DNA of 48,007 bases from Ferrovibrio sp. (GTDB taxonomy: Bacteria > Pseudomonadota > Alphaproteobacteria > Ferrovibrionales > Ferrovibrionaceae): assembly GCF_002796975.1 (NCBI RefSeq), contig NZ_PEKV01000005.1, forward strand, positions 669,587-717,593, given 5' to 3'. The position numbers and the translations under genes are program-made. This document shows, in pieces, positions 24,167 to 26,441 of the stretch (positions are counted from its first letter, which is position 1; each line of letters begins with the position of its first letter). The notes beneath the pieces are model-generated. The model was not told the origin of the DNA. It searched no databases and saw only the letters and a program-made list of their open reading frames with translations.

Positions 24167-24573
24167 TTATCCGGATGTAGCAACTTGCCGGTATCGGTTT
24201 CGCAAATGAACCGCCGTCTGATCTATGCTCGGGTAAACTGTTGTTGCATTAATGTTGATGCTGTCGAGTTGTTTCAGGACGCGTTGCTTATTTCTAATCG
24301 TGATGCGGGCAATCTCAATTGTTTCGTTGCCGCCTTCAGGCAAAGTTGCTTCGTGTCCGTATAGTAAGAAAGCGCCTAACTGCGATTTTATTCTTGTATT
24401 TGTTCGTTTCGCCTTCACGCAAATAATCGAATTTAAATCATCTGGAAGGATGCGACCTTCAAAATAGCCTTTCTCTGAGCGGATGTGATGAAGGAGTTGC
24501 CCTGCGCAAACGGCGATATAAGAGGGAGGTGTAACTGAGTGTAGCGGCGAGATTAATTTTTTTTGCTATACTG
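24167..24573 (-). pseudogene. FRG-domain protein remnant (5'-truncated)
   Basis: On the minus strand a frame is open for about 135 codons, from after a TAG near 24576 to TAA at 24167. It has no plausible start codon and no ribosome site at its 5' end. The C-terminal part reads LNSIICVKAKRTNTRIKSQLGAFLLYG...KQRVLKQLDSININATTVYPSID, matching the C-terminal half of FRG domains (QSGAFLLFG and K..ILKELD..GI...TLFPDL patterns). FRG proteins are often carried by accessory or defence loci. The stretch is visibly AT-richer than its surroundings. I read it as the 3' remnant of an acquired gene; the missing N-terminal half was lost. Confidence 0.62.
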
Positions 24574-24600
24574 TTGCCCGCTCAAACCCCTGGGAGACCC

Positions 24601-24801
24601 ATGGTGCGCCTGATCATCGCGATCTTTCTGCCCTTCCTGCTGTTCTTCACCATCGGCCGGCCGATCGCCGGCATCATCTGCCTGATCCTGCAATGCACGC
24701 TGATCGGCTGGATCCCGGCGGCGCTCTGGGCGGTCTATGCGCTCAGCCAGTACAGCACCGCCAAACAGATCGAGCAGGCAACCGGGCGAAAGCCCGGTTG
24801 A
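24601..24801 (+). CDS. YqaE/Pmp3 family membrane protein
   Basis: Protein of 66 residues with two hydrophobic helices joined by a short turn, ILQCTLIGWIPAALWAVYALSQY being the family-typical second helix. Pmp3/YqaE proteins are small stress-linked membrane peptides (salt and membrane potential). GGGAG lies before the ATG, and a TATACT -10-like element is at 24567-24572. It directly abuts the FRG remnant. A terminator follows at 24830. Confidence 0.88.
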   Translation: MVRLIIAIFLPFLLFFTIGRPIAGIICLILQCTLIGWIPAALWAVYALSQYSTAKQIEQATGRKPG

Positions 24802-24829
24802 GGCGCCGGCATTCATCCGTCTGCTGAGG

Positions 24830-24860
24830 AAAGGCCGGGCCGCAATCCCGGCTTTCTTTT
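24830..24860 (+). terminator. Terminator of the YqaE gene
   Basis: AAAGGCCGGG pairs with CCCGGCTTT (24847-24855) with one bulged G, a 7-nt loop and a CTTTCTTTT tail. Confidence 0.82.
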
Positions 24861-24871
24861 GCAGTAAAATG

Positions 24872-24881
24872 TTGCTATAAT
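24872..24881 (+). promoter_or_regulatory. Extended -10 promoter leading into the AACGA array and MFS gene
   Basis: TTGCTATAAT contains a consensus TATAAT (24876-24881) with the TGN extension just upstream. No good -35 is placed 16-18 bp before. If used, transcription starts near 24888, and the AACGA array lies inside a roughly 300-nt 5' leader of the MFS gene at 25185. Confidence 0.5.
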
Positions 24882-24939
24882 GTTCCATTTGGCGTGTATC
24901 TCCCCGCCGGATAGGCAGCGATAGGCGGTATTAGCCCAA

Positions 24940-25036
24940 ACGAACGCAAACGAAGCGAAACGAACACCAACGAGTATCCAACGAAGCCGAACGAACGCAA
25001 ACGAGCATCTAACGAACTCAAACGAACCGAAACAAG
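24940..25036. repeat. Phased AACGA array, ten copies at 10-11 bp
   Basis: ACGA (nine copies) or ACAA (last) begins at 24940, 24950, 24960, 24970, 24981, 24991, 25001, 25012, 25022 and 25032, so spacings are 10 or 11 bp. Most copies read AAACGAA or AACGAAC, and the spacers differ. The period matches one turn of DNA. A 13-bp segment, CGAACGCAAACGA, occurs twice 51 bp apart. Period 10 is not a multiple of three, so a repeated peptide is unlikely. Confidence 0.85.
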
Positions 25037-25184
25037 CGCAAGGCAGGGTCCAGGGCTGATCCTGCGGCTCACCCTTCGGTGTGAGTGCCGAATGCAGGGG
25101 CGCAATTGTAGACTTGCCCCTTGCCGGTCAGGGCTTTAGCTCTGCTGCAGACGAACCGCACGCCCGTTCAGGAGAGGCCTCCCG

Positions 25185-26441
25185 ATGTCCGCACCCCCCG
25201 CAGCCGCCCCCGGATCGGCGCCTGGCCCCGTGCTGGGCTGGCGCACGCCGCTCCTGGTCATCATCGCCGGCTGCACCATTGCCCTGCTGAATTTCGGCGT
25301 GCGCTCCGGCTTCGGACTGTTCCTCGAGCCGATCAGCATCGCCAACGGCTGGGGTCGCGAGGTGTTTGCCTTCGGCATCGCCATCCAGACCGTGCTCTGG
25401 GGCTTCGGCCAGCCCTTCGCCGGCGCCATCGCCGATCGCTACGGCTCGGCCCGCGTGCTCGCCGTCGGCGCGCTGCTCTATGCCGGCGGCGTCGCGCTCA
25501 CCGCCTATGCCGCCACGCCGCTGATGCTCAATCTCACGCTGGGCGTGCTGCTCGGCATGGGGCTGGCCGGCACGTCGTTTACCGTGGCGCTTGCCGCCAT
25601 CGCCCGCATGGTGTCGCCCGAGCGGCGGTCCTGGGCGCTTGGGCTGGGCACCGCCGCCGGTTCGATGGGGCAGTTCCTCATGGTGCCGCTCAGCCAGGGC
25701 TTCATCGCCGCCTGGGGCTGGCAGACCGCCTTGCTGCTGCTCAGCCTGTTCGCGCTCGCCATCATACCCCTGTCGAGCGCGCTGGCCGGCAAGGCCGTCG
25801 AGGGCGGCGGTCCGAAACAGTCGATGGGCGAGGCGCTGAAGGAAGCCGGCAACCAGAAGAGCTACTGGCTGCTGATCTCGGGCTTTTTCGTCTGCGGCTT
25901 CCATGTCTCCTTCATCCAGACGCATCTGCCGGCTTATATCGTCGATCGCGGCCTCGATCCGCAGACCGGCGCCTGGGCGCTGGCGCTGGTAGGCCTCGCC
26001 AATGTGGTCGGCTCGTATACCGCCGGCGTACTCGGCGGCAAGCGCAGCAAGAAATACCTGCTCAGCTTCATCTACGCGGCGCGCGCCGTGGTGATCGCCG
26101 TCTTCGTCATGCTGCCGATGACGCAGGTCAGCGTGCTCATCTTTGCCTTCGCCATGGGGCTGCTCTGGCTCTCCACCGTGCCGCTCACCTCAGGGCTGGT
26201 GGCGCAGATTTTCGGCCCGCGCTACATGGCCACCCTGTTCGGCATTGTTTTCTTCAGCCACCAGGTCGGCGGCTTCCTCGGCGTCTGGCTCGGCGGCCGG
26301 CTGTTCGATGCCAGCGGCTCCTATGACGTGGTCTGGTGGATCTCGACGGGTCTGGCCATTTTCGCCGCCATCGTACACTGGCCGATCGACGAACGCCCGC
26401 TGGTGCGTGCACCGGCGCCGGCTGCTGCTGCTGCGGAGTAA
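25185..26441 (+). CDS. MFS transporter (oxalate/formate antiporter-like subfamily)
   Basis: Major facilitator of 418 residues with 12 helices. Loop 2-3 has GAIADRYGSARVL (motif A), the first helices carry NFGVRSGFGLFLEPISIANGWGREVFAFGIAIQ, and the second half holds GFHVSFIQTHLPAYIVDRGL, a pattern seen in MFS members near the OFA/monocarboxylate group. The substrate is not predictable. GGAGAGG lies before the ATG. The C terminus is an Ala-rich tail. A small membrane protein gene follows 2 bp after the stop, so the two are probably co-transcribed. Confidence 0.85.
   Translation: MSAPPAAAPGSAPGPVLGWRTPLLVIIAGCTIALLNFGVRSGFGLFLEPISIANGWGREVFAFGIAIQTVLWGFGQPFAGAIADRYGSARVLAVGALLYAGGVALTAYAATPLMLNLTLGVLLGMGLAGTSFTVALAAIARMVSPERRSWALGLGTAAGSMGQFLMVPLSQGFIAAWGWQTALLLLSLFALAIIPLSSALAGKAVEGGGPKQSMGEALKEAGNQKSYWLLISGFFVCGFHVSFIQTHLPAYIVDRGLDPQTGAWALALVGLANVVGSYTAGVLGGKRSKKYLLSFIYAARAVVIAVFVMLPMTQVSVLIFAFAMGLLWLSTVPLTSGLVAQIFGPRYMATLFGIVFFSHQVGGFLGVWLGGRLFDASGSYDVVWWISTGLAIFAAIVHWPIDERPLVRAPAPAAAAAE

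Follow-up and report, generated by a model that had tools for sequence, protein, structure and literature searches.

Rep-iteron systems combine a DNA-binding protein with helically spaced direct repeats near its gene. A small DNA-binding protein and direct repeats at about one helical turn characterize the ParR–parC and TubR–tubC partition systems. Here, ParR of R1 needs 11-bp repeats, that of pB171 binds 10-bp repeats and that of pSK41 binds 20-bp repeats (PMC9426499); TubR, a winged-HTH protein, assembles into filaments on tubC (PMC5016525). In REP/REPIN elements with their RAYT (TnpA-REP) proteins, a few protein genes are accompanied by many small, non-autonomous related copies (PMC3116915, PMC8266576). 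TAACTGA heptamers form intergenic sets of direct repeats in Beggiatoaceae and Cyanobacteria, and a regulatory role has been proposed for them (PMC4679880).

The locus described here lies in the window (the whole 48,007-nt stretch of Ferrovibrio DNA that was analysed) and holds an array of short direct repeats, one of a family that includes arrays at the 3' ends of small HTH genes. The likeness to ParR–parC and TubR–tubC lies in the small DNA-binding protein and in repeats at one or two helical turns, with lags of 10, 11, 20 and 21 only. In contrast to those systems, the Ferrovibrio arrays are chromosomal and dispersed (at least 46), the array stands at the 3' end of the gene and is partly coding rather than in the promoter, the HTH domain has no Pfam match above cut-off, and there are LexA boxes and dialect exchange. 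No ribbon–helix–helix (ParR) or TubR-type protein was recognized by Pfam above its cut-off, and no ParM or TubZ partner was noticed beside the HTH genes. By analogy, the array system may work like ParR–parC or TubR–tubC, but it is not a member of either.

The differences from the other systems are of a similar kind. Unlike iterons, the arrays are not a plasmid origin and occupy dozens of chromosomal sites, and no Rep match above cut-off was obtained. REPs are palindromes with a dedicated transposase, whereas the array units are direct and non-palindromic, the HTH protein has no recognized catalytic domain, and no HUH/Y1 transposase was found above cut-off. The TAACTGA heptamers are the nearest described intergenic arrays, but unit and placement differ: they have one 7-nt unit, mostly just upstream of start codons, and the abstract of that paper mentions neither a LexA box nor an HTH gene (PMC4679880). 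The earlier note on this DNA knew of no named element of this type; none was found in Rfam, Pfam or the literature, and the literature yielded no description of a LexA-linked phased-array element.

The array in the window

The evidence throughout is sequence-based. Re-reading of the window DNA agrees exactly with the ten ACGA/ACAA core positions reported earlier, at 24940, 24950, 24960, 24970, 24981, 24991, 25001, 25012, 25022 and 25032, the last being ACAA; the spacings are 10, 10, 10, 11, 10, 10, 11, 10 and 10. The array starts earlier than had been claimed, as three degenerate units in the same 10-nt register, GATAGGC (24910), GATAGGC (24920) and ATTAGCC (24930), had been missed upstream of the ten cores. 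GATAGGC-type units akin to these also precede the arrays of two small HTH genes, L352 and L357. The features of the locus are as follows; G004 and G005 are congeners.

24837 to 24858, forward strand: terminator-like hairpin with a T-rich tail, the upstream end of the element; conserved in the G004/G005 alignment
24871 to 24885, forward strand: LexA (SOS) box GTTGCTATAATGTTC, containing the -10 TATAAT (24876 to 24881) and the extended -10 TGC; same 15-mer in G004/G005
24886 to 24909, forward strand: short leader from the SOS promoter to the array, from sequence and congener alignment
24910 to 24939, forward strand: three degenerate in-phase units, GATAGGCAGC, GATAGGCGGT and ATTAGCCCAA
24939 to 25041, forward strand: A-dialect array of ten AACGA-N5/6 units, final core ACAAG
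25089 to 25138, forward strand: block conserved with G004/G005 by alignment, immediately 3' of the array
25185 to 26441, forward strand: MFS transporter ORF, orthologous in 8 congeners; a neighbouring gene, probably outside the element

One terminator-like site was found, against 0.9 expected in shuffles. No Rfam model scored above its cut-off over 24500–25300. A three-core search pattern (ACGA-N6/7-ACGA-N6/7-ACGA) gives seven overlapping matches in the window, every one inside the 24939–25041 array; in 100 dinucleotide shuffles of the window the mean is 0.03 and the largest count 1, so that the array stands far above its shuffled frequency in the comparison that the earlier note had proposed. 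Across the whole genome the pattern gives 99 matches in 17 arrays, compared with 6 matches for the backwards control. The same note would have abandoned the array had it lacked conservation in relatives; arrays are present in congeners, and the finding stands. No frame open from a start codon to the array was seen by eye, and a peptide-coding array in the window was rejected.

Array dialects and their distribution

The 4.23-Mb genome from which the window comes (G000) carries at least 46 arrays in several core dialects, for which the letters A, B, C, E and F are labels of this analysis. Pattern searches, whose counts are lower bounds, give 17 arrays with ACGAA (A), 26 with ATAAG (B) and 3 with AACNGG (C). 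Further dialects were recognized by reading the DNA behind other AT-rich LexA boxes, and two were seen in congeners, at arrays of the 10/11-nt type: ATRGACCTGACTCAGC (E) and ATGGGAC/TTCAGCAC (F). The period is 10, 10/11 or 21 nt according to dialect, always one or two turns of B-DNA; this spacing is common to the dialects, as is, in most of them, a loose [AC]AYNRR core. The one-helical-turn spacing claimed for the window array is thus supported. Among 10-nt units of the A dialect, of which there are 42 distinct sequences, ACGA is followed by A in 102/109 and the spacer positions carry 0.3–0.9 bits, which bears out the claim that the motif is held as the spacers vary. In B arrays outside genes, 11–11 spacing is common (27/72 transitions).

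Unit length tracks the spacer word in the A dialect, in which almost all 11-nt units read ACGAG[CT]A[CT]C; in the B dialect, 11-nt units mostly have T at the third spacer base and 10-nt units are without it. An A array is followed by a B array at one site of the same genome (L030:3929–4137), and by an E array at L088 in a congener; arrays can therefore be dialect mosaics.

ACGAA arrays were found in 5/10 Ferrovibrio genomes and in 0/31 others. ATAAG arrays occur in seven Ferrovibrio genomes (one by a single match) and in a genome of a sister genus (G010), beyond which the pattern gives a single match in one further outside genome. Over 385 alphaproteobacterial genomes, matches to a dialect-agnostic AAYRRR pattern cluster in Ferrovibrio. 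A broad spread of the exact 10-nt ACGA pattern was considered and rejected, its matches elsewhere being mostly plain tandem repeats. Separately, intergenic 10-nt arrays of CACGAATGGA/CACGAAGGAA were seen in L068, L091, L111, L113, L121 and L133 (Chloroflexi, Verrucomicrobia, Trichlorobacter, Nitrosomonas), sometimes near inverted copies. Arrays of this type reach many phyla and have the same period and a similar ACGAA core.

LexA boxes upstream of the arrays

Known members of the LexA/SOS regulon in the Alphaproteobacteria are mainly repair genes; SOS promoters bearing arrays, by the dozen, appear to be undescribed. The alphaproteobacterial LexA box is GTTCN7GTTC/GAACN7GAAC (PMC3091678; PMC6237742), and the array promoters have this box class in common with the regulon. 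The box in the window, at 24871–24885, is GTTG-N7-GTTC, with one mismatch (GTTG) to GTTC-N7-GTTC. An extended -10 element had been recorded here; it is present (TGC TATAAT), but as part of a LexA-type operator. In the same genome, lexA (GTTCTAATGAAGTTC) and recA (GTTCTCATATCGTTG, one mismatch) also have a box of the GTTCN7GTTC class upstream, its position relative to each start codon having been worked out by hand.

A LexA-type box was counted as linked to an array if it had at most one mismatch and an AT-rich spacer and lay within 250 nt. Such boxes are found upstream of 16/17 A arrays and 13/25 B arrays, and downstream of 0/17 and 1/25, respectively; the background rate in distant windows is 2.7% for the A comparison and 1.6% for the B comparison. 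The enrichment is thus on the upstream side of the arrays only, and a recognizable box is absent from about half of the B arrays. The array promoters are predicted to be under LexA control in vivo. In Caulobacter, mitomycin-induced sRNA start sites were found to have no SOS box nearby (PMC6237742).

Small HTH genes with 3' arrays

Certain genes for small proteins with the conserved domain W..A..LA.G..P.A.A..LGI.E.R.WRHLR.S.RFR have an array within their last codons or immediately behind them, and coding arrays exist solely at the 3' ends of these HTH genes. When 20 family members were compared with Pfam, no match was above cut-off, including any to a Rep, ParR or TubR family or a transposase; a weak HTH_23 match was seen in 12/20 (best E 1.3e-5). 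A profile search identified 24 HTH genes in Ferrovibrio; two further genera of the same family yielded 7 between them. In 30 distinct HTH genes from the three genera, the 3' regions have an excess of self-similarity solely at lags of 10, 11, 20 and 21, and in 24/30 the array signal is above the 95th percentile of 56 control gene ends; it was not found in this lag analysis for L342. In G000, HTH genes at C36:76392, C44:159242 and C35:210656 bear A, B and C arrays, respectively. L382 (G013), for instance, has eleven CAT[AT]GG units exactly 10 nt apart just behind the stop codon, and L395 (G010) has five 21-nt units in frame. A LexA-type box is present near the start of at least 15 of the 23 Ferrovibrio HTH genes in the lag set, and in the two other genera only at L381 (exact) and L396.

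In the coding A arrays (L338, L339) the reading frame of the core passes through 0, 1 and 2 in turn, and the core is still intact. In coding B arrays, spacings of 11 and 10 alternate, so that TAA is never in frame, and coding E and F arrays run at 21 nt. Since the ACGAA cores are kept though read in all three frames, the array signal is at the level of nucleic acid and not of peptide. For most B arrays a peptide-coding role was rejected because the 11–11 spacing blocks all frames. The HTH domain is under purifying selection (dN about 0.06–0.24, dS about 0.31–0.81).

Eight HTH genes, spread over three genera, have R-N-[LI]-x-R-S in their presumed recognition helix, and every one of them carries NGG-type cores (AACGGG, CATAGG, ATTGGC, AACTGG), an association that rests on few independent lineages with moderate tree support. 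ATAAG arrays and an HTH gene bearing an ATAAG array co-occur in G000, G001, G002, G004, G005 and G010, and G006 has neither an HTH gene nor A or B arrays. In the draft genome G001, A arrays are present and an HTH gene bearing an A array was not found; in G009 (72% complete), B arrays are present and an HTH match was not found. In the clpB-adjacent HTH gene of four species, the presumed recognition helix is nearly unchanged (RIWRHLRKSLRFR) and the array is A, A, E and F; a constant helix with varying arrays is a poor fit with a strict one-protein–one-core reading.

The 3' ends of the G002 and G007 HTH genes (L344, L345) and an ORF-less element of G002 (L270) share a TGTGACAAAANNCCCGGAATGTCCGGGAAGC-like sequence. 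Sequence sharing of this kind suggests copying between HTH gene ends and ORF-less elements. An origin of the HTH gene in phages, plasmids or viruses was set aside, as no homologue was found in those collections: tblastn of one HTH protein against phages and plasmids gave no match, and none was confirmed in viral contigs.

Exchange of dialects at fixed sites

The same intergenic site was recognized across species by its flanking orthologues, and the dialect at a site can differ between species, with the box kept. The L258 site has a B array in G000, G001 and G005 and an A array in G004; the L283 site has B in G000 and A in G005; and the L017 site has A in G000 and G005 and E in G001. Away from the window site, congener loci had been selected on an exact box match, which biases box conservation at them; the window site, located through the MFS gene, is without this bias. 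Here, G005 has an identical 15-mer box and an A-like array, and G004 an identical 15-mer box and a B (ATAAG) array, each followed by the conserved block before the MFS gene. This indicates that at the MFS site the array was swapped, and that box and flanks stayed.

The conserved block at 25089–25138 is probably the MFS gene's own promoter region. In front of the MFS gene, G002, G003, G007 and G009 showed neither box nor array, G008 has a near-box without a clear array, and the G006 contig is too short to judge. The MFS gene therefore does not require the element as its leader. The neighbours of the dispersed array sites are unrelated to one another, and at 6/17 A loci the array faces a convergent gene. 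The probable 5' leader of the MFS gene proposed earlier is contradicted by these convergent arrangements and by the promoter-like block between array and gene.

Possible function of the arrays

Of the three ideas put forward in the earlier note (curvature, protein binding on one face, an open RNA), binding on one face is the best-supported. Predicted bend and RNA openness are not shared among the dialects and helical spacing is; the HTH family, encoded beside its own array, would be the natural reader. We put at about even the chance that the array is a one-face DNA docking platform for SOS-linked small HTH proteins. A complete unit would consist of a LexA-controlled promoter, an HTH gene and, within or just behind that gene's last codons, an array phased at 10/21 nt. 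About 40 further copies, that of the window included, would have kept the array and often the LexA promoter, with the HTH gene lost or never there; these ORF-less copies may be targets or satellites. DNA damage would free the promoters from LexA and raise HTH protein levels. The proteins would then bind cooperatively to a single face of the arrays, with one site in each helical turn, like ParR on parC. Such binding could serve nucleoid organization or segregation after damage, or act as a transcription roadblock.

Among the alternatives, it is not very likely that the arrays are largely selfish or neutral satellites without host function, spread from site to site by gene conversion, by template switching or with HTH assistance. 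At least 46 copies per genome, leader and unit blocks common to unrelated sites, replacement of the dialect at fixed sites, and a box and array at the MFS site in G000, G004 and G005 but not seen in G002, G003, G007 or G009 would all suit such elements. However, the window-site box, at a site found through the MFS gene, is identical in three species though the flanks have diverged, the HTH genes are under purifying selection, cores within coding sequence are intact in all frames, and neither a transposase nor terminal repeats were seen. Simple tandem duplication or slippage without constraint is barely credible: Tandem Repeats Finder detects weak tandem structure, but A follows the core in 102/109 units against spacers of 0.3–0.9 bits and 42 distinct 10-nt units, identical cores recur at many unlinked sites in several species, and the dispersed, LexA-linked distribution contradicts it.

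A function in RNA, whereby LexA-repressed promoters make SOS transcripts with the array tail as a periodic RNA platform or sponge for a protein or an RNA and the HTH gene merely shares that tail, is unlikely. It is favoured by the constant orientation of the array, which without exception follows the box on the sense strand, by the -10 element within the LexA box and by A and B arrays that are nearly unstructured (MFE per nt -0.063 and -0.075, compared with about -0.3 in the flanks). Shuffles give about -0.08, however, so this openness is mostly compositional; C arrays are not unstructured (-0.263 per nt), and strict one- or two-turn spacing across differing cores is expected of duplex DNA rather than single-stranded RNA. 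The unstructured A/C-rich RNA platform of the earlier note thus holds as a description of A and B arrays, largely through their composition, and fails for the structured C arrays. A shared RNA structure was rejected, none being found across the arrays and Rfam giving no match above cut-off over 24500–25300. It is very improbable that the array is DNA with an intrinsic bend, or a 5' leader that regulates the MFS gene. A wedge model predicts a bend of 99 degrees for the window array (38 in shuffles) and an average of 61 for A arrays (34 in shuffles), yet B arrays, at 26 against 27 degrees, replace A arrays at the same sites, the window site included. Curvature is therefore not upheld as the purpose of the array, nor as a common denominator, being predicted for A and two C arrays and absent for B. 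The array does lie upstream of the MFS start codon, but 6/17 A arrays face a convergent gene, and in other congeners neither box nor array accompanies the MFS gene.

Returning to the docking platform, the arrays and the HTH gene ends, taken as sequence, point to an undescribed DNA-damage-linked system of a protein and its landing sites. More tentatively, this may be a lineage-restricted chromosomal system, undescribed so far, in which a LexA-linked HTH family has its own arrays and dozens of ORF-less arrays swap dialect at fixed sites: a damage-triggered, multi-site nucleoprotein organizer analogous to plasmid centromere arrays. If so, dozens of periodic DNA arrays have become part of the DNA-damage response of a single bacterial lineage, and a new family of cognate DNA-binding proteins comes with them. 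Dialect swaps at fixed sites, with spacing and promoter kept, would be a natural experiment that separates helical phasing from base sequence; the pairing of an HTH protein with its own array is directly testable, and the loci would be a new class linked to SOS. Even as satellites, the arrays would show bacterial chromosomes turning over repeats in a way not described before.

A link of B elements to chromosome partition is possible. The parS half-site GTTTCACG precedes the first ATAAG core of L255, L263, L280, L285, L291 and L297 at fixed distances (-10 and about -23), two of these six G000 B elements having it at only one of both positions. Its density is 0.63 per kb in element regions compared with 0.011 per kb elsewhere. 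A complete parS-like palindrome, TATGTTTCACGTGAAACATAT, is located just behind a B array at L289:1621–1641 (G000:C33, about 148.2 kb).
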